In this document: one piece after another, positions 22,462 through 60,903 of the stretch
Position numbering within the stretch: position 1 is the stretch's first letter
Layout: each line of letters begins with the position of its first letter
Source of the DNA: Flavobacteriia bacterium
GTDB lineage: Bacteria; Bacteroidota; Bacteroidia; Flavobacteriales_D; Crocinitomicaceae
Length of the DNA stretch: 61,103 bases
Direction of reading: 5' to 3'
Assembly: GCA_016178305.1 (NCBI GenBank)
Contig: JACOTM010000026.1
Location: 1 to 61,103 of the forward strand
The notes under the pieces: model-generated
Databases searched by the model: none
What the model saw: only the letters and a program-made list of their open reading frames with translations
Told to the model about the DNA's origin: nothing
Translations under genes and position numbers: made by a program

Positions 22462-22774
22462 AATTTCGCATTTTACACCATTTTTACTTTGAATTTACTA
22501 GTATATTTTTCAGGTATAATGCCGATATAGCTTTGATTAAATTGGAATTTTATTCCAGTATTATCAAAGGTCAATCGGTATTAGTAAACAAAAGTAAGAT
22601 TAAAATACTTAAAATTTTATTTTATTAATAATGGGCTATTGATACACGATTGAATGATAGTCAATTTTATTTTACTACATTCGATTATTATTCCGTTTAA
22701 ATATAATTTCTAGATTATTATCTATAAAAAACAGCGCAGGTAAGTGCGCTGTTCTTAACGATATGCAGTGTTTC
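22462..22774. other. Intergenic region between recA and the EamA gene
   Basis: About 313 bp, AT-rich, no gene. It contains the recA terminator (22726-22753) and, on the minus strand, a consensus -7 box TACTTTTG at 22589-22596, which could serve the EamA gene with a ~125-nt leader. I see nothing else in it. Confidence 0.6.
22726..22753 (-). terminator. recA terminator
   Basis: AACAGCGCA (22730-22738) pairs with TGCGCTGTT (22745-22753) around a 6-nt loop. On the minus strand the hairpin is followed by a T run (22726-22731 region). It lies just past the recA stop at 22775. Confidence 0.9.
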
Positions 22775-30666: not shown

Positions 30667-31176
30667 ATGAAAATCTTTTTATCTCTAATATTGATAAATG
30701 TTATTTTATTCAGTTTTATTTCTTCAGGAAATCGCCATTTTATAGGCACAACTTGGATTTTAAAAACCATACTTGTAAAAAATGATACTGTTTTTTCAGA
30801 TGGAAACAAGAAATTGACAATAAAATTTTTTCTGGAAATGGATAAAGATTTTTTATCTCAAAATAATCAAAATGGTGAACGTAAAATGATTGAAAACAAT
30901 GCGATCAAAAAGTATGATGAATGCAAAAAGATTCGACTACAATTCATTTCTGATTCAACGTTTATTATTACTAAAATACGTCCTGGAGGAAAAATATTTT
31001 CAAATGAAATTGATAGTGGTGTATATAAACAAACAATAGATTCTTTATTTTTAGTTGTTCCAAAAAGAAATAATTATCCCTATAATTTTAAAATTTATAG
31101 CGATAAATTATCATGTATCGATAAACATCCTATTAATCCTAAAACCACTTTAGAATTTTATCAATCTAAACATTAA
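30667..31176 (+). CDS. Exported hypothetical protein, lipocalin-like
   Basis: 169 residues. An N-terminal signal segment (MKIFLSLILINVILFSFISS) precedes a beta-rich domain with FIGTTWILKTILVKNDTVFS, KLTIKFFLEMDKDFL and KIRLQFISDSTFIITK. The opening 'GTTWIL' and alternating strands resemble small lipocalin-like proteins of Bacteroidetes; I cannot name a family. It stands alone on the plus strand and ends convergently with infB, whose terminator lies at 31334-31358. Confidence 0.7.
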   Translation: MKIFLSLILINVILFSFISSGNRHFIGTTWILKTILVKNDTVFSDGNKKLTIKFFLEMDKDFLSQNNQNGERKMIENNAIKKYDECKKIRLQFISDSTFIITKIRPGGKIFSNEIDSGVYKQTIDSLFLVVPKRNNYPYNFKIYSDKLSCIDKHPINPKTTLEFYQSKH

Positions 31177-52202: not shown

Positions 52203-53409
52203 AAATCAAATATTAATAGATAAATACATTGCAAAGCCAATTGCTTATTTTTTGAATTTTATTGTTCAGATTTTAGGTCAAATACTTCGAATAAACCATG
52301 ATTTAGATAAATCTTTTGAAACGATTGCAGTTTGTAAATTCAAGGGAATGGGAAGTATTATTCAAGCGACTCCTTTACTAAATTCAATCAGAAAAAAACA
52401 CCCAAATGCAACTATAATTTTTGTTACTTCTAAATCAAATACAAAGATATTAGAACATCTCCCCATGATTGATCAAGTGATAACTGTCAATGATAAAGGA
52501 TTAGTTAATTTTAGTATTTCAGCTATAAAAGCATTAATAAAACTGATTAAAATTCGCCCAGATGTATATATTGATCTTGAAATTTACTCAGATTTTAGTA
52601 CATTATTTACACTATTTACACTTTCAAAAAACAGATTGGGTTTTTATTTGAGATCAAGCTCGTTTAGAACGGGGATTTATACACACATGATGTTTTTTAA
52701 TCCAAAAGCCCCTATTTCAAAAGTTTATTTACAAATGGCAAAATTGTTATATTGTGATGACATATCAGAAATTTATCCTTTAAAATATAAGTCTAAGTTT
52801 TATAAATCAATTGGCAAAGAATATATTGTTATCAATCCAAACGCATCCGATTTAAGAATAGAAAGAAGGTGGGATATTAAGAATTTTATTAAAATTATTG
52901 AATTATTATTAGTTGAATATTCTGATCTAAAAATTGTAATTGTTGGTAGTAAGGATGAGTTAGATTATACGAAAGAAATAGAGAAAATTATCAAAAATGA
53001 ACGATTAATCAATTCAACTGGAAAATTAACTATTGATGATTTAATTGGTGTTATTGCGAATGCAAAATTGATGTTAAGCAATGATACAGGTCCTATGCAT
53101 ATTGCTTTTAGTACAGAAACTCCGATAATATGTTTATTTGGTCCATGTTCACCTGATCAATATGGATTAAGTGAAAAAGCACATATAATCTATAAACCGG
53201 TTTATTGCAGTCCATGTGTTCATGATTTTACTACTCCTCCCTGCAATGGAGAAAATATTTGTATGAAATTAATTCAGGTGGGAGAGGTTTATTCTGTATT
53301 TAAAAAAATAAACTTTGAAATACATCAGAACCCAAAATTTACTAACTCAAACAAATTGATTTATTCATATAATGATAACACTTTAGGTATTCTAAAAACA
53401 GGTTTTTAA
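52192..53409 (+). CDS. Glycosyltransferase family 9 (heptosyltransferase-like)
   Basis: 405 residues. GT9 enzymes add heptose or related sugars to lipopolysaccharide or other glycans using ADP/NDP sugars. Typical features: KFKGMGSIIQATPLLNSIRKKHP at the N-domain, PNASDLRIERRWDI, and the donor-site block MLSNDTGPMHIAFSTETPIICLFGP. A C-terminal Cys cluster (KPVYCSPCVHDFTTPPCN) is present, as in many Bacteroidetes members. It overlaps the membrane protein gene by 11 bp. Degraded transposase sequence begins right after the stop codon. Confidence 0.88.
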   Translation: MNVKNQILIDKYIAKPIAYFLNFIVQILGQILRINHDLDKSFETIAVCKFKGMGSIIQATPLLNSIRKKHPNATIIFVTSKSNTKILEHLPMIDQVITVNDKGLVNFSISAIKALIKLIKIRPDVYIDLEIYSDFSTLFTLFTLSKNRLGFYLRSSSFRTGIYTHMMFFNPKAPISKVYLQMAKLLYCDDISEIYPLKYKSKFYKSIGKEYIVINPNASDLRIERRWDIKNFIKIIELLLVEYSDLKIVIVGSKDELDYTKEIEKIIKNERLINSTGKLTIDDLIGVIANAKLMLSNDTGPMHIAFSTETPIICLFGPCSPDQYGLSEKAHIIYKPVYCSPCVHDFTTPPCNGENICMKLIQVGEVYSVFKKINFEIHQNPKFTNSNKLIYSYNDNTLGILKTGF

Positions 53410-53452
53410 TCGGTTATGGTCGTATCGAAACTAGAATATAGGGTTATTGCTT

Positions 53453-53596
53453 GATGCAGCTAAGAATATTGCGATGTATTATTCATTCTTTGCAACCTGC
53501 AAAAAGAATGATGTTAACCCACTCAAGTGGTTGAGTTATGTTCTCAAGAATATCAATAACACCAAATTGCCAGAACTTAATAAGTTGCTCCCTTAG
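53453..53596 (+). mobile_element. IS66-family transposase, C-terminal relic
   Basis: The frame from 53453 to a TAG at 53596 encodes 47 residues: DAAKNIAMYYSFFATCKKN, DVNPLKWLSYVLKNINNTK, LPELNKLLP. This is the 3' end of an IS66-type transposase, where NPxxWLxYVLxxI is characteristic. The rest of the transposase is missing. Immediately before it (53412-53438) the words GYGRIETRI resemble the HGRIETR motif of ISAs1-type transposases, too short to call. I see no terminal inverted repeats, so the element is dead and partly deleted. Confidence 0.8.
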
Positions 53597-53756
53597 TATA
53601 TTGATTGTATTTTATTGGATTAAACAACATAATTACTCAAGCAAATACATTAATAGAATATTAACAGGCTATCAAAAATATGAAAAACGTGCAAATGCAT
53701 TTAACGCAACAACTTAAACCGTTGTTTTCCAATTAAATAAGTACATTGTGATTGTT
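53597..53756. other. Non-coding spacer between IS relic and half tRNA
   Basis: About 160 bp of AT-rich sequence without a gene. It has replaced whatever continued the tRNA gene at 53757. I see nothing else in it. Confidence 0.5.
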
Positions 53757-53796
53757 ATTATGAGTCAGGTGCTCTAACCAACTGAGCTATAGGACC
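53757..53796 (-). tRNA. 5' half of a tRNA-Met (CAU) gene, truncated
   Basis: On the minus strand the sequence from 53796 reads GGTCCTATAGCTCAGTTGG and on through TTAGAGCACCTGACTCATAAT (acceptor 5' strand, D arm, anticodon arm with CAT). At 53757 it breaks off in the anticodon stem and continues as AACAATCAC. T arm, 3' acceptor strand and CCA are absent. A complete promoter precedes it (53833-53863). It is therefore a non-functional remnant that may still be transcribed. Confidence 0.85.
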
Positions 53797-53832
53797 GAGA
53801 AATATTCATTAGAAATGAATCATTTCAGGTTG

Positions 53833-53863
53833 CAAATATAAGAGTATGAAATGGAAATGCAAG
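53833..53863 (-). promoter_or_regulatory. Intact promoter of the half tRNA
   Basis: On the minus strand CTTG (53863-53860), a 19-bp spacer and TATATTTG (53840-53833), the same elements as in front of rimP. The start would be about 30 bp above the tRNA 5' end. Confidence 0.6.
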
Positions 53864-53913
53864 AGAAAATGTGAAATAAGAGTATGAAATGGAAATGCAA
53901 GAGAAAATGTGAA
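53838..53913. repeat. Exact 38-bp tandem duplication
   Basis: The unit beginning ATAAGAGTATGAAATGG occurs twice in a row (53838-53875 and 53876-53913). It covers the -33 box and spacer of the tRNA-half promoter and lies directly before the TauE/SafE gene end (53935). Recent, since the copies are identical over the whole unit as far as I can align. Confidence 0.85.
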
Positions 53914-53934
53914 AAAAATACGGATCAAGATGAA

Positions 53935-54735
53935 TTATTTCATAAAACGATCGTACAAAATGAAAAGGGATACAAATACGAGTAAGTAACTGAAGACTTT
54001 GCGTAAAATTTTACCTGTGAAAAAATTTTGTAAAAAAGTACCTATAAAAACACCTGAAACAGTTAGAATGGTTAAAAAAGCTAATAGTGAAAAATTAATA
54101 GAACCATTCGAAAATTGATGGTTGAATAAATCACCAACTAAAGCTCCGATAGATTGAATAGTTATTATTAACATCGAAGTGCCGATTGCCCGGCGCATTG
54201 ACAACCCCATTTTTGTTAAAGCTGGTACGATGATAAATCCTCCTCCGGCACCTATAATACCAGCTAATAAACCTGTGAAACCACCGTAAATTAATATAGT
54301 TGTATTCGATACTTTTTCTGGTTCTTGTATGACTTCTTTTTTAAATAACATTCTAATAGATGTAATAATCATTACAATGATTAATAACAACGACATAATC
54401 GAATCCTTCGTAGTTGAAATACTTCCAATTTCTATGTTATCTGGAATGAATGGTAGAATAAAAAAACGAACACTAAAAGCAATAATCGTACTTGGAATAG
54501 CAAAAATTATAGCCTCTCGGATGGCAAAATCATTGGTCTTCTTCCGTTTTAAAACGCCGATTCCCGATGCAATAGCAACCATAAATAGTGAATATACAGT
54601 TGCTTGGACCATTGGGATTTCAAAAAAATAATTCAGTACAGGTAAAGTAAGAATCGAGCCGCCGCCGCCTACTAAACCCAAAACTATCCCTATTAAAACA
54701 GTTACAATAAATCCAATTATATGCATTGTGAACAA
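53935..54735 (-). CDS. TauE/SafE family sulfite/organosulfur exporter
   Basis: 266 residues with about seven membrane helices. The TauE/SafE signature repeats appear twice: IGIVLGLVGGGGSILTLPVLNYFF near the N-terminus and TGLLAGIIGAGGGFIIVPALTKM in the second half. The family exports sulfite, sulfonates or related anions; the substrate here is unknown. It is alone between ctaA and the tRNA-half promoter, with 20 bp to the ctaA stop. Confidence 0.9.
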   Translation of the reverse strand: MFTMHIIGFIVTVLIGIVLGLVGGGGSILTLPVLNYFFEIPMVQATVYSLFMVAIASGIGVLKRKKTNDFAIREAIIFAIPSTIIAFSVRFFILPFIPDNIEIGSISTTKDSIMSLLLIIVMIITSIRMLFKKEVIQEPEKVSNTTILIYGGFTGLLAGIIGAGGGFIIVPALTKMGLSMRRAIGTSMLIITIQSIGALVGDLFNHQFSNGSINFSLLAFLTILTVSGVFIGTFLQNFFTGKILRKVFSYLLVFVSLFILYDRFMK

Positions 54736-55896: not shown

Positions 55897-56685
55897 ATGC
55901 AAAAATGCTTTATTTTAGGACTTGGATGGCTTGGACTTCCTTTAGCAAAAAAATTACTAAAAAAAGGTTTTATTGTTTCAGGAACGACAACATCTAAAGT
56001 TAAAAAAGAAGAAATTGAAGCAAATTCAAGAATTAATACGCATGTATGGTCTTTTCAGAATCCGATTCATTTTTTAGATGATTTACTCAATAGTGATTTG
56101 GTCATAATTGCAATTCCAGCCTCAAAATCAATTGAAAATATTCAACATCTACTTGATATATTACAAAATTTACAACCAAAATCAGATTTAATATTTCTTA
56201 GTTCAACAAGCGTTTACCCTGATAATCTTGTAAATTGTATGGAAGATTATTCTTTTACAAATGAAGATTTAAAGAATAAAAATGTTCAGCTTGAAATTGC
56301 GATTACCCAAAACATTAAAAATAAAATTACAATTCTAAGATTAGCAGGATTAATTGGTCCAAACAGACATCCAATTAAACAATTAAATGGTAAAATTAAT
56401 ATTCCTGATGGCTTGTCTCCTGTTAATCTTGTACATTTAGACGATGTTATTAATGCGATCAATCAAATCGTTTCTAAAAAATTATTTGGGCATATTTACA
56501 ATATTTGTTACCCAAGTCATCCTTCTAGGTTAGAATATTACACACGAGCAGCAGAATTATCGAACTTACCTCAACCTCATTTTCAGAATACAAACACAAA
56601 AACGAAACAAATTAATTCCAAAAAATCAGTAGAAATATTGAAATTTGAATATATGTTAGATATAAATAGTTATATACTTAAATAA
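55897..56685 (+). CDS. NAD(P)-binding protein, YeeZ-like SDR
   Basis: 262 residues. The start CFILGLGWLGLPLAKKLLKKG is a Rossmann glycine-rich loop of the extended SDR/epimerase type; SDLIFLSSTSVYPDN and TILRLAGLIGPNRHP follow the YeeZ-like pattern, where the catalytic Tyr/Lys of true epimerases is not obvious. A role as a dinucleotide-binding reductase or epimerase-like protein is expected; the substrate is unknown. It has no close partner; 495 bp of gene-free DNA follow. Confidence 0.8.
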   Translation: MQKCFILGLGWLGLPLAKKLLKKGFIVSGTTTSKVKKEEIEANSRINTHVWSFQNPIHFLDDLLNSDLVIIAIPASKSIENIQHLLDILQNLQPKSDLIFLSSTSVYPDNLVNCMEDYSFTNEDLKNKNVQLEIAITQNIKNKITILRLAGLIGPNRHPIKQLNGKINIPDGLSPVNLVHLDDVINAINQIVSKKLFGHIYNICYPSHPSRLEYYTRAAELSNLPQPHFQNTNTKTKQINSKKSVEILKFEYMLDINSYILK

Positions 56686-56978
56686 AAATTTAGTAGCTTT
56701 TTCGAAATTAAGGGTTCAAATTATTTTGAGGTGCTGAAATTCAAATTTTAAAAGTATGATAGATAAAGGATATTTTATATTTGTTGAACTTTCTTTTGGT
56801 TCAAGCTAAAAAAGAGCAAACGATTATTTTTAATAGAGAAACGGAATTTAGGGTAAAGTGAAATAATTTTAGATTTAATTTCCCATTAGTACTTCATAAT
56901 AAATTATCACAATCGTTTTAACTTTAGTTTGGTTTTTGTGCATGATACGTCTGTATAACATTAAAGATTTATTATACC

Positions 56979-57017
56979 AGAAAGAGGCATATTTTTCGAA
57001 TATACCTCTTTCTTTTT
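56979..57017 (+). terminator. Strong hairpin with plus-strand U run
   Basis: AGAAAGAGG (56979-56987) pairs with CCTCTTTCT (57005-57013), with an inner ATATT/AATAT pairing, and TTTTTG follows on the plus strand. It would end a plus-strand transcript (for example from the -7 box at 56776), and can also form the 3' end of the minus-strand candidate RNA. Confidence 0.7.
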
Positions 57018-57124
57018 GATATCAATTAAATTTATATTGATAAGGAGAATATCAATATTTTTCAGGTGGAGGTATTTATATTTTAATTGCTATGTTTCTT
57101 CGTTAATTGTTCTTATTTATTGAA
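56979..57124 (-). ncRNA. Candidate small RNA under two-component control
   Basis: A promoter shaped exactly like that of the histidine kinase gene (palindrome, 23 bp, TACATTTG -7 box at 57137-57130) should start a minus-strand transcript near 57124. No open reading frame of note follows. The transcript would fold into ATATTGATA/TATCAATAT with the loop TTCTCCT (57034-57058), and AGAAAGAGG/CCTCTTTCT with an inner ATATT/AATAT stem (56979-57013). Unpaired CU-rich words (ACCTCCACC near 57068, TTCTCCT in the loop) are anti-Shine-Dalgarno-like. There is little U run after the last hairpin on this strand, which weakens the case. Inference only. Confidence 0.35.
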
Positions 57125-57150
57125 CGATACAAATGTATAGACCAATTAGA

Positions 57151-57177
57151 ATTCTTACAATACACCAAAAGGTGTAG
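57151..57177 (-). promoter_or_regulatory. Operator-like palindrome, copy A (after the kinase gene)
   Basis: Contains TACACCAAAAGGTGTA (57161-57176), a perfect 6-4-6 palindrome. The 27-bp context matches copy B (59246-59272) at 24 positions. It touches the kinase stop region (57180) but its edge overlaps an ATTG -33 word 20 bp from the minus-strand -7 box TACATTTG (57137-57130), the same geometry as copy B. Confidence 0.7.
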
Positions 57178-57179
57178 TT

Positions 57180-59171
57180 TTATTTTTTCTTAAGTGGTAT
57201 TTCGATAATTATGGTTGTACCAGATTTTGGATTCGAATCAATTTGGATATTCCCTTTAATAAATTCTACGCGATTGTATATGTTTTTCAAACCCATGCTT
57301 TGACTAGAATTTCTATTATCAATAATTCCAGGTAATATTCCGATACCATTGTCTTCATACATTAAAGTGATAATATTGTCCTCTTCTATGATTTGAATAC
57401 TAGCTTCTTTAGCTTGTGCATGCTTGATACAGTTGGTCAATAACTCTTGTGAAATTCTATAAATATTATGTTGAATATGGTCCGTAACTGCAGGAGAAAA
57501 ATCTGAAATATAACATTTTAAAGATGTTACATGCAAATCATTTAATCGACTAACAAATTCTTCCATTGCTTTACCTAATCCATGATCTTGCAACGTATCA
57601 TGTGATAAGTTTTTCATAATATTTCGCAATTCAAATGATATTTTGTCAATTAAATTTAACGTTTTTTGATAATTTTCTTGTTTGTCTTTTGGAACTTCTT
57701 CTTCATATAATTGTAAATTTATTTTTAAGGTTGAAAGAAATGTACCAATACTATCATGCAAATCTTTGGCTATACGTGATTGTTCTTTTTCAAGCGCTTG
57801 AACAATTTCAGTCGTGGTTAATTCTCGCTGCTCATTGATTGCTTTTTGATGTAAATTTTGTTGTAATAAACGACGGCGATTGAAGAATAAAATTAATGTA
57901 ATAACGAGCAATATGAAGCCAATAATCGTCCCGCTAATGATTGCATTTCTTTTCTGAATTTTACCTTCTAAAATGGTTTTATCTTTTTGTTTTGCTTTTA
58001 TTTTAGCATTTAATTCGGAGATTTTTTTCTGTTTAATTGCCGTTTCGTATTTAGTAGCCAAATCGCTTACAATAATTGCTTTTTTCTCATTAAACATACT
58101 ATCTTTAACTTGATATTGATTTTTTAAAGCTTCTAATGATTTTGATAAATCATTTTGACCCTCGTAACACTTTGATAAACATTGGTAATTACTTTGAGTG
58201 ACATCTTGCAGGTTCATTTTTTTAGATAATTCAAGCGATTGATTGAGATATGTTATCGCTTTATCATATTCTTTTAATTCGGTATAATCGTACCCAATAT
58301 TACTTAAAGAGGTTGCTTGTTGCTGTAACATTTTGTTTTTCTTTGAAAAGTCATACGCTCTTAAATGATATTCTAATGCTTTATTGTACTTGTTTAAGTC
58401 TTGATAAACAATTCCTAATCCTATTAAATTTGAAGCAATTGCTGTGATTCGATTTGTAATTTTTGAATAAACCAATGCTTTTTCATGGCAATCAATTGAT
58501 TTATTAAATTTTTTCATTTTACAATAAGTATTTGCTAAATTCGAATAAGCACCAGCCATTCCCAGCGTATCTTTTTTCGATTTTGCAATATCAATTGATT
58601 TTAAACTATATTCAACAGCTTTTTCAAATTGCTTATCTTTTTCAAAAACGATTGCTAAATTCGAATAAATTTTTGTTCTAACCGAAAGATTATCCGCATT
58701 AGCTTGATCCATTATTTGAAGTGCTTTCAGGTAATATTCCATCCCTTTTATCAAATTTTCCATTTGGGAATAAGAGTTAGCGATGCTTGCATAAATAACA
58801 GCGATATTGATATGGTCATTCGGATTACTTTCTTTTAGCGCAATTAATGCTTTTTCTAAATACTCAATTCCCACTTCAAAACTTCCTGAATTATTAGAAT
58901 TATTTCCAAGCGACATTAAGGCATAATATTCTCCTTTTTTGAAATTAATTTTTTGAGACAAAGCAAGTTGGGCTTCTAAATATTTTTGAGCTTTTTCTGT
59001 AGCTCCTCCTCTTAAAACATAGTAATTTGCTATTTTTTTATACAAGAAGACTTTATTGGTGTCTTCTTTGGATGATTCTAATTTTTGAATTAGACTGTCA
59101 ATGTTTTGTGCAAAAAAGCTATTTGAATAAAAGCATATTGCAAAGAAAAAAAGAAAAGAAATTTTTATCAT
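57180..59171 (-). CDS. TPR-containing sensor histidine kinase (NarX/HPK7 type)
   Basis: 663 residues. Signal peptide, then tetratricopeptide repeats (~60-350, e.g. YALMSLGNNSNNSGSFEVGI, AGAYSNLANTYCKMKKFNKS), a coiled-coil, one transmembrane helix (AIISGTIIGFILLVITLILFF) and the kinase core. The phosphoacceptor is in RIAKDLHDSIGTFLSTLKIN (HisKA_3), the N box in SQELLTNCIKHAQA, the G box in YEDNGIGILPG. The extracytoplasmic TPR sensor has no known ligand. It pairs with the NarL-type regulator upstream (59298). The gene lies exactly between two copies of the 27-bp element and has a TATTTTTG -7 box (59232-59225). Confidence 0.93.
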   Translation of the reverse strand: MIKISFLFFFAICFYSNSFFAQNIDSLIQKLESSKEDTNKVFLYKKIANYYVLRGGATEKAQKYLEAQLALSQKINFKKGEYYALMSLGNNSNNSGSFEVGIEYLEKALIALKESNPNDHINIAVIYASIANSYSQMENLIKGMEYYLKALQIMDQANADNLSVRTKIYSNLAIVFEKDKQFEKAVEYSLKSIDIAKSKKDTLGMAGAYSNLANTYCKMKKFNKSIDCHEKALVYSKITNRITAIASNLIGLGIVYQDLNKYNKALEYHLRAYDFSKKNKMLQQQATSLSNIGYDYTELKEYDKAITYLNQSLELSKKMNLQDVTQSNYQCLSKCYEGQNDLSKSLEALKNQYQVKDSMFNEKKAIIVSDLATKYETAIKQKKISELNAKIKAKQKDKTILEGKIQKRNAIISGTIIGFILLVITLILFFNRRRLLQQNLHQKAINEQRELTTTEIVQALEKEQSRIAKDLHDSIGTFLSTLKINLQLYEEEVPKDKQENYQKTLNLIDKISFELRNIMKNLSHDTLQDHGLGKAMEEFVSRLNDLHVTSLKCYISDFSPAVTDHIQHNIYRISQELLTNCIKHAQAKEASIQIIEEDNIITLMYEDNGIGILPGIIDNRNSSQSMGLKNIYNRVEFIKGNIQIDSNPKSGTTIIIEIPLKKK

Positions 59172-59224
59172 TAAATTTATCTAAATATGTGATGTAATAA
59201 TCTTTGACTAAATAATAGATTAAG

Positions 59225-59232
59225 CAAAAATA
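59225..59232 (-). promoter_or_regulatory. -7 box of the histidine kinase gene
   Basis: Minus-strand TATTTTTG, with ATTG 20 bp above inside the palindrome element. It would give a ~48-nt leader to the ATG at 59171. Confidence 0.55.
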
Positions 59233-59245
59233 CGCTTCTAAAAAG

Positions 59246-59272
59246 ATTCTATCAATACGCCAAAAGGTGTAG
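59246..59272 (-). promoter_or_regulatory. Operator-like palindrome, copy B (before the kinase gene)
   Basis: Contains TACGCCAAAAGGTGTA (59256-59271), a 6-4-6 palindrome with one mismatch. It is 24 of 27 identical to copy A and overlaps the -33 position of the kinase promoter. A NarL-type response regulator binding here could control its own kinase. Confidence 0.7.
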
Positions 59273-59297: not shown

Positions 59298-59930
59298 TTA
59301 TAATCCATTGTCCAATGCAAATTTCACTAAGCCAGCTGTGTTTTTGATTTCCAATTTATGCATGGCATTTTTTCGGTGTGTGTTTACAGTTAATTCACTT
59401 AAAAACAATTGTTGCGCTATTTCTTTATTCGTCATAGATTTTGTAATTAGTCGAATAATTTCAATTTCTCTATTTGTAAGTTTTGAAATCAAAGTTTCCT
59501 CACTTGAAATAACGCCTATCTGAGTATATTTTTTGATTTGTTCCGAATAATATGTTTTTCCTTTAGAGACTTCTTGTATTGCTTCCAACAATTCTATCTT
59601 AGAAGTGTTTTTTAAAATATATCCTTTTGCTCCCGCTTTTAACATTTTTTTGACATGATAGATATCATCGAACATTGTAAGTGCAATTGTATGTATTTCA
59701 GGATGTTTTTCGGATATGTATTTGGCGGTATCAATCCCATTTAATTCTTCCATTCCAATATCTAACAAAACAACATCAATACCTAAAGTTGGTATTTTTT
59801 GAACTAAATCGTTTCCATTGGTTGCCTCTCCAACAATTTCAATAAAATCGACACTTTCCAGCAAAGATTTTATTCCATCTATAAACATTTGGTGATCATC
59901 GGCAATGAATATTTTAATTGCTTTTGACAT
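59298..59930 (-). CDS. NarL/LuxR-family response regulator
   Basis: 210 residues. Receiver domain with acidic pocket (FIADDHQMFIDG), phosphoacceptor Asp57 (VVLLDIGM), Thr (TIALTMFDD) and Lys (LKAGAKGYILKNT). The LuxR C-terminal HTH (LTNREIEIIRLITKSMTNKE, IAQQLFLSELTVNTHRKNAM) binds DNA. It should be phosphorylated by the kinase encoded downstream. Its own promoter has a perfect TAATTTTG box (59958-59951) but no copy of the palindrome, which sits instead before the kinase and beyond it. Confidence 0.95.
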   Translation of the reverse strand: MSKAIKIFIADDHQMFIDGIKSLLESVDFIEIVGEATNGNDLVQKIPTLGIDVVLLDIGMEELNGIDTAKYISEKHPEIHTIALTMFDDIYHVKKMLKAGAKGYILKNTSKIELLEAIQEVSKGKTYYSEQIKKYTQIGVISSEETLISKLTNREIEIIRLITKSMTNKEIAQQLFLSELTVNTHRKNAMHKLEIKNTAGLVKFALDNGL

Positions 59931-60114
59931 GAATTTGGTATTTATCTTTTCAAAATTAAGACAATTCGTTTATAAACACCGAATTTGATAACAATAATTG
60001 AACGAAGGTTATTAACACAATTCTACTGTTCGTTCTAAGAATAATAAATTACGAATCTAATTTTACAATCCACAATTTTAGAAGAAATGTTTAACTTTCC
60101 GAAAAATTTGAAAA

Positions 60115-60903
60115 ATGGATTTAAATCTTAAAAATAAAGTGGCCGTAGTTTGCGGAAGTACTCAAGGAATCGGAAAAGCGGCAGCTATTGAATTAGCACG
60201 TTTAGGTGCTTCGGTTGTTTTAGTTGCACGTAATGAAGAAAAATTAAAAGAAGTTACTGGAGAACTAGATGCCTCATACGGACAAAAACATTCATATATC
60301 ATCGCCGATTTTTCAAAACCTGAAGAATTAAAAACGACTATCGAAAGTTGGGCAAATGCTGGAAATAAAGTTCATATATTAGTTAACAATACTGGCGGAC
60401 CAAAAGGTGGACCAATTATCAATGCTGGGATTGATGAATTTTACAGTGCATTCAGTCAACATTTGATTTGCAATCATATTATGGTTCAAGCTTTATATCC
60501 AATAATGAAAGCTGAAGGTGGTGGTAGAATTATCAATGTGATTTCTACAAGTGTGAAACAACCGTTACATAATTTAGGTGTGTCAAATACGATTCGTGGG
60601 GCTGTTGCTAGTTGGAGTAAAACCTTGGCAAATGAATTAGGTCAATTCAATATTACTGTAAATAACGTATTACCAGGAGCAACAAATACAGATCGTTTAC
60701 AAACATTGGCTAAAATTAAATCAGATCAAATCAATGGAACAGTTGATGCTGTTTTAGAGGAAATGGGTTCTGAATCTCCAATGAACAGAATTGCTAATCC
60801 AGAAGAAATTGCAAATGCTATTGCGTTTTTAGCTTCTCCAGCTGCTAGTTACATCAATGGAATCAATGTTCCAGTTGATGGTGGAAGAACGAAATCGCTG
60901 TAG
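60115..60903 (+). CDS. Short-chain dehydrogenase/reductase (SDR)
   Basis: 262 residues. Classical SDR: VAVVCGSTQGIGKAAAIELA (TGxxxGxG-type nucleotide loop), HILVNNTGG, and IINVISTS with a later catalytic region. In place of the usual YxxxK the sequence continues HNLGVSNTIRGAVASWSKTL, so the catalytic Tyr is not where expected, as in the FabG-like/3-oxoacyl-reductase relatives that lack it; activity is therefore uncertain. The end NGINVPVDGGRTKSL is the usual SDR tail. Monocistronic, with a strong terminator behind. Confidence 0.88.
   Translation: MDLNLKNKVAVVCGSTQGIGKAAAIELARLGASVVLVARNEEKLKEVTGELDASYGQKHSYIIADFSKPEELKTTIESWANAGNKVHILVNNTGGPKGGPIINAGIDEFYSAFSQHLICNHIMVQALYPIMKAEGGGRIINVISTSVKQPLHNLGVSNTIRGAVASWSKTLANELGQFNITVNNVLPGATNTDRLQTLAKIKSDQINGTVDAVLEEMGSESPMNRIANPEEIANAIAFLASPAASYINGINVPVDGGRTKSL

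Follow-up and report, generated by a model that had tools for sequence, protein, structure and literature searches.

Paired operator-promoters at a TPR-kinase two-component locus of a Flavobacteriia genome and a candidate second output beyond the kinase gene

Results

Genes and features of the locus

The stretch of DNA analyzed here, hereafter the window, is the whole contig C68 (61,103 nucleotides) of the 3.6-Mb genome of a Flavobacteriia bacterium (G000). Its minus strand encodes a two-component system, made up of a response regulator gene (59930-59298) and, behind it, a sensor histidine kinase gene (59171-57180). The regulator possesses the features of the NarL/FixJ family, a receiver domain and a LuxR/GerE-type helix-turn-helix (HTH), both above the Pfam cut-off. 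Its closest solved chains are VraR, NarL, and EvgA, and the NCBIfam UvrY/GacA and NarL models also hit it, although below their equivalog cut-offs. The kinase carries HisKA_3 and HATPase_c with the conserved His that marks a HisKA_3 sensor kinase, and the H-box and ATP-binding residues are invariant in three kinases, its own and those of the two relatives from another genus (g4) described below. The coordinates of all features are collected in Table 1.

Table 1 Genes, candidate operators, promoter boxes, and predicted RNA features of the locus
Feature	Position	Strand	Description	Context or basis
Response regulator, NarL/FixJ type	59298..59930	minus	Receiver + LuxR-type HTH, 210 aa	Pfam Response_reg 2.1e-25, GerE 4.1e-18
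TPR-type sensor histidine kinase	57180..59171	minus	663 aa; signal peptide (by eye), TPRs, HisKA_3, HATPase_c	Pfam
Operator A	57161..57176	unstranded	TACACCAAAAGGTGTA; perfect dyad, TACACC and GGTGTA around AAAA	3 nt past the kinase stop codon
Operator B	59256..59271	unstranded	TACGCCAAAAGGTGTA; dyad, TACGCC and GGTGTA around AAAA	In the regulator-kinase gap
TAnnTTTG box of promoter A	57130..57137	minus	TACATTTG	23 bp from operator A; predicted start ~57125
TAnnTTTG box of the kinase promoter	59225..59232	minus	TATTTTTG	23 bp from operator B; predicted start ~59220, 49-nt leader
Interval downstream of promoter A	56686..57129	minus	About 440 bp	No ORF >= 60 aa
Predicted hairpin 1	57034..57058	minus	9 bp, loop UUCUCCU, weak	Folding
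Predicted hairpin 2	56979..57013	minus	15 pairs including one U-G, loop CGAAA	Folding

In five genomes of the same genus (loci L075-L079), the DNA shared with the window upstream of an SDR gene begins only at 60075-60082. The start of this shared DNA (window 60075-60115) lies 33-40 bp before the ATG of the SDR gene, and the two-component block is thus flanked by a synteny break. Elsewhere in the window, the gap between convergent genes at 53409-53935 holds a 38-bp unit repeated perfectly in tandem, with 2.0 copies (53838-53914). Inspection by eye also showed there the remnant of a transposase-like C-terminus and a partial tRNA-like piece in antisense (53530-53800). ARAGORN found no tRNA gene in the whole window.

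A first-pass annotation of this DNA had proposed that two 27-bp elements, at 57151-57177 and 59246-59272, are 24/27 identical, and recomputation gave the same value. The dyad within them is 16 bp long and reads TACACC-N4-GGTGTA, with one mismatch in copy B. The distance from palindrome to TAnnTTTG box, given earlier as exactly 23 bp, was confirmed at both copies, and the two spacers do differ, being identical at only 11 of 23 positions. An "ATTG word" had also been placed at the edge of each element; a TTG does directly follow the dyad in A and B but is absent from the four g4 sites. Flavobacterial sigma-A promoters of F. psychrophilum are described as having the TAnnTTTG box at -12 to -5 (PMC9723704). 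With the boxes set at these positions, the dyad centers fall at about -43.5 for both copies, and the predicted starts lie one base away from the 57124 and 59219 originally suggested.

The composite element is rare, the bare dyad is not

The resemblance of the two 27-bp elements is unconvincing by itself, because the window contains three clusters of 24/27 pairs and one of three dinucleotide-shuffled windows also had one (0, 0, and 1). The composite of dyad, 23-bp spacer, and box behaves differently. At up to three mismatches, it occurs twice in the window, whereas shuffled sequences averaged 0.07 matches and none of 100 had as many as two. At up to two mismatches, only A (no mismatch) and B (one mismatch) were found in the 3.6 Mb of the own genome, both at this locus. 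With three mismatches allowed, the search falls to the level of its reversed control there (four matches, namely A, B, and two with three mismatches, versus four), and the corresponding counts for the g4 genomes G029 and G031 were 10 and 11 versus 9 and 6. Likewise, when the dyad was extended by its TTG to a 19-mer, A and B stood alone in the own genome at zero and one mismatch, and the next three matches, at three mismatches, compare with one control match.

The bare dyad, in contrast, is not rare, and the box at 23 bp is what distinguishes A and B. At up to one mismatch, the dyad was present at 9, 8, and 12 places in G000, G029, and G031 (reversed control, 2, 5, and 4), and only 5 of these 29 places have a box at 23 bp. 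Seven of the near-dyads without a box at this spacing are in the own genome. The box occurs with a frequency of ~0.0008 per position and strand.

Across 240 genomes of the family, the composite with at most one mismatch was detected at 14 places in 11 genomes, versus two for the reversed control. Five of the 14 belong to this two-component system. The open frames that enclose the other nine, which include one exact match (G206), span 156-529 codons from stop to stop; those over the system's six sites span 35-78 codons. Eight exact composite matches in viral contigs were rejected, all being within open frames of 115-1118 codons; in total, all 17 other composite matches checked were inside longer open frames. 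Open frames need not be genes; even so, wherever these searches met the composite outside a long frame, it accompanied this system.

The module recurs with the system in another genus

Kinases matching at E <= 1e-60 were found in 3 of the 240 family genomes: the own genome and G029 and G031, which belong to g4 and encode the closest kinases (E about 1e-194). The same three genomes, and no others, were recovered at E <= 1e-80 among 399 genomes of the order (own counted). Within the own genus, kinase matches at E <= 0.001 occur in all 12 genomes, but the 11 others, several of which are incomplete, have none at E <= 1e-60 and none better than 5.6e-34. A scan of genome contigs for wider conservation yielded one distant locus with 29% identity, which was uninformative. 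The comparison is thus one of three genomes, two of them from one genus.

In G029 and G031, the regulator and kinase genes adjoin in the same order, and their products are 63% and 49% identical, respectively, to those of the own genome. The HTH region of the regulator is almost unchanged across the three genomes (SELT[VI]NTHRKNAM[HR]KLE), as would be expected if all three regulators read the same operator. Comparing the flanking DNA, the exact dyad 16-mer is present upstream of the regulator gene in both g4 genomes, where it faces a divergent gene; a box, TAGTTTTG, follows exactly 23 bp away, leaving by arithmetic a 15-nt leader to the ATG. This gene encodes a LytTR-domain protein (Pfam LytTR, 1.6e-17 and 6.9e-18), in which Pfam found no receiver domain. 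A second site occupies the regulator-kinase gap. In G031, it reads TACACCAAAAGGAGTA (one mismatch) with the box TACTTTTG at 23 bp, and in G029, it is the half-degenerate TACACCATATTAAGTA with the box TAAATTTG, again at 23 bp. Here the right half of the dyad is lost and the left half, the spacing, and the box are kept, a pattern expected of DNA recognition rather than of an RNA hairpin. The G029 kinase site is nevertheless weaker evidence, because it was found by position and then by a 3-mismatch search, which is otherwise at control level.

The TAnnTTTG box therefore stands exactly 23 bp from the dyad at all six sites, two in each genome, while within each of the three genomes the spacers of the two copies agree at only 11, 6, and 11 of 23 positions. 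The two LytTR-side spacers of g4 are 20/23 alike and thus not independent of each other. The first-pass annotation had named, as the observation that would speak against it, relatives that keep the kinase and lack the palindrome and spacing; G029 and G031 instead keep the gap site together with an exact second copy, each at 23 bp. Both genomes also encode a second, more distant kinase (45% identical in G031, contig C151, locus L040; 38% in G029, contig C20, locus L041). No regulator gene was seen by eye beside either one in these 5-kb loci, and no dyad with up to four mismatches was found nearby, apart from one 3-mismatch match behind that of G029.

These comparisons also bear on whether the dyads are operators at all. 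Each is on the 3' side of a stop codon and is terminator-like on the plus strand (three such structures were found in 5.3 kb, where 1.8 are expected), as would suit a transcription terminator or an mRNA hairpin at the end of each gene. We consider this highly improbable, since the T-run is opposite to the gene strand, one g4 dyad lies between divergent genes, the kinase site of G029 breaks the dyad yet retains spacing and box, and the minus-strand RNA of copy B would pair poorly (-4.0 versus -7.9 for A). Equally little credence is due to a looping or repressor pair that silences the kinase gene between the two sites: the operators do flank this gene in the own genome, 2.1 kb apart, but those of g4 do not, and each keeps its own promoter with the dyad at ~-43.5, an activator position.

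What promoter A faces

As the first-pass annotation had noted, copy A points into DNA without a recognizable gene; there is no frame of 60 codons in 57129-56686. Among the ATG frames of the minus strand, the longest has 28 codons and starts at 56961. It is on the correct strand for a small protein driven by copy A, but it begins 164 nt past the predicted start, behind hairpin 2, and in our judgment a frame of this length is expected by chance, which makes a protein product improbable.

The same annotation had described two hairpins with CU-rich loops and proposed a small RNA. Both hairpins are indeed predicted, but only the loop of hairpin 1 is CU-rich. Hairpin 2 folds with -18.1 kcal/mol on the minus strand versus -14.3 on the plus strand, where the U-G position becomes a C-A mismatch. 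Such a strand bias would point to a minus-strand transcript, although this could also be the 3' end of the kinase mRNA. By eye, a T-run follows hairpin 2 on the plus strand only, and no minus-strand terminator was called and no U-tract was present after it.

A functional small RNA of ~145 nt (57125 to ~56979) behind the kinase gene, an RNA output as with UvrY/GacA, would account for a perfect operator-promoter with no gene behind it and for a hairpin fully paired only as minus-strand RNA. In addition, the 146 nt of 57124-56979 fold with z -5.6, and none of 200 shuffles was as good. A precedent is available in UvrY of the NarL/FixJ family, which is described as driving the CsrB and CsrC RNAs (PMC10277598). 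However, the fold is ordinary when hairpin 2 is excluded (57124-57020, z -1.85), and with a cruder z based on 30 mononucleotide shuffles each, the interval scored -5.35 and another of 15 intergenic stretches reached a comparable -5.5. This other strong fold is at 22462-22607 of the window, on the plus strand. Against 239 other family genomes, the matches listed for the interval were pieces of 18-65 nt, the best being 26 nt with E 3.5e-5 per genome; we read these as probable chance matches in AT-rich DNA, with which a lineage-specific RNA would still be compatible. An Rfam search returned four matches up to E 10, all to eukaryotic families and below cut-off. Predicted pairing of the interval with the starts of the regulator (rank 9 of 50 gene starts in the window) and the kinase (rank 41) was unremarkable, and the starts of two other genes, at 30667 and 42312, pair better (z -3.9 and -3.3). 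Moreover, the relatives use the second operator for the LytTR gene. The earlier small RNA proposal was thus not borne out, and we regard such an RNA as possible but doubtful.

The position of the second operator in g4, upstream of the regulator gene and driving LytTR, raises another possibility, namely that copy A is an orphan, the second output of the module (LytTR or another gene) having been lost or having stayed behind when the gene block moved. Transcription from it would then lead nowhere or would enter the convergent gene 55897-56685 at its 3' end. No dyad with up to four mismatches is present upstream of the own regulator gene. LytTR matches elsewhere in G000 (eight, in frames of 235-279 codons) are at best 36% identical, and tblastn with both g4 LytTR proteins gave no convincing remnant in the interval or the window, the best of the matches listed (E 0.057) being elsewhere in the window. 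The block may further be a recent arrival or a relic, because the 11 other genomes of the genus lack the kinase at E <= 1e-60 and in five of them the shared DNA begins only at 60075-60082. On the other hand, operator, spacing, and box are perfect at A and surpass those of B, suggesting that selection has continued or that the duplication is young. An orphan promoter can therefore be held only tentatively. Weighed against each other, an orphan promoter left by rearrangement and a small RNA are about equally likely. Promoter A faces DNA without a recognizable gene, and a small RNA is thus a candidate product of it, not an established one.

Discussion

The best explanation of the locus, and a likely one, is a single small regulon of the two-component system with two activator-dependent promoters, copies A and B, the regulator binding both and the one at A giving a second output. 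What we observe is the sequence and spacing of the sites, their presence in two genera, a composite that the genome has nowhere else at up to two mismatches, and a recognition region that is nearly identical. What we infer from this is that the regulator binds, that it activates and does not repress, where the transcripts start, and all that is said of the RNA. The twin operator-promoters are real, and their kinase-side function is well supported by the comparison across two genera. The idea put forward earlier, that the regulator controls its kinase through the promoter of copy B, gains support from the module recurring before the g4 kinases. Both sites are very probably operated by the adjacent regulator, although further NarL-type regulators, should the own genome have any, could read such a dyad.

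In the mechanism that we propose, the phosphorylated NarL/FixJ-type regulator (59298-59930) would bind TACACC-N4-GGTGTA as a dimer centered at ~-43.5, and the bound regulator would assist sigma-A polymerase at the TAnnTTTG promoter 23 bp away. Site B would thereby provide positive feedback on the kinase gene, which would have its own promoter inside the regulator-kinase gene pair, and site A would be a second output promoter. In g4, this output would be the single-domain LytTR transcription factor. In G000, a transcript would run from ~57125 into the stretch without a recognizable gene; it is probably short, either a 3'-region small RNA or functionless since a rearrangement removed the former target.

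Activation is favored by the position of the dyad and by the promoters themselves. In Escherichia coli, NarL is described as activating from 7-2-7 sites at -40/-49 (napF) and -38/-47 (yeaR) (PMC4549865). The dyad center here, at ~-43.5, falls between those of napF (-44.5) and yeaR (-42.5). Likewise, the four g4 sites lack the TTG, as expected if an activator stands in for the upstream promoter element.

Overall, this is an ordinary kind of two-component regulon, and its main interest is a well-defined operator together with a second output that would differ between genera. An operator, a spacing, and two target promoters are proposed for a TPR-kinase system from sequence alone; they recur in a second genus and are directly testable. 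It is conceivable, if rather unlikely, that a portable module was rewired between genera, with LytTR as its target in g4 and a lineage-specific small RNA behind the kinase gene here. If so, the output of the same two-component system would be a protein in one genus and an RNA in the other. The operator string did not occur in the literature searched, and titles and abstract openings on TPR kinases with LuxR-type regulators and LytTR in Bacteroidetes, or on small RNAs there, held nothing on this system.

A TPR and HisKA_3 kinase adjoining a NarL/FixJ-type regulator corresponds to the TPR-kinase/LuxR-type regulator pairs of Bacteroidota, and the two genes described here are likewise neighbors of these types. 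What sets the present system apart is that the kinase appears to have its own operator-promoter and that the second operator would serve LytTR (g4) or an unrecognized product (G000).

Compared with BarA/UvrY and CsrB/CsrC as described in PMC10277598, the present system shares a NarL/FixJ-family regulator with a possible RNA output. However, no GGA-repeat RNA was apparent here by eye, and the kinase architecture differs; membership in that system is not claimed. As for the promoters, the exact TAnnTTTG box of flavobacterial sigma-A promoters, in the form given in PMC9723704, is present at all six sites, whereas the TTG after the dyad, a possible upstream element, is confined to copies A and B. 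In comparison with the NarL operators of napF and yeaR, as they are presented in PMC4549865, the promoter is of the TAnnTTTG type, the target is the system's own kinase, and the site here is a predicted one. The fit to the 7-2-7 form, two inverted heptamers 2 bp apart, extends to the length and the outer six positions (6-4-6 exact in A), while the seventh positions are not complementary. Of the 16 positions of operator A, 3 differ from the engineered NarL 7-2-7 site TACCCCTAAAGGGGTA reported there when the better-fitting orientation of the two is taken, and the 16-bp length and the TAC...GTA ends are common to the NarL operators and the site described here.
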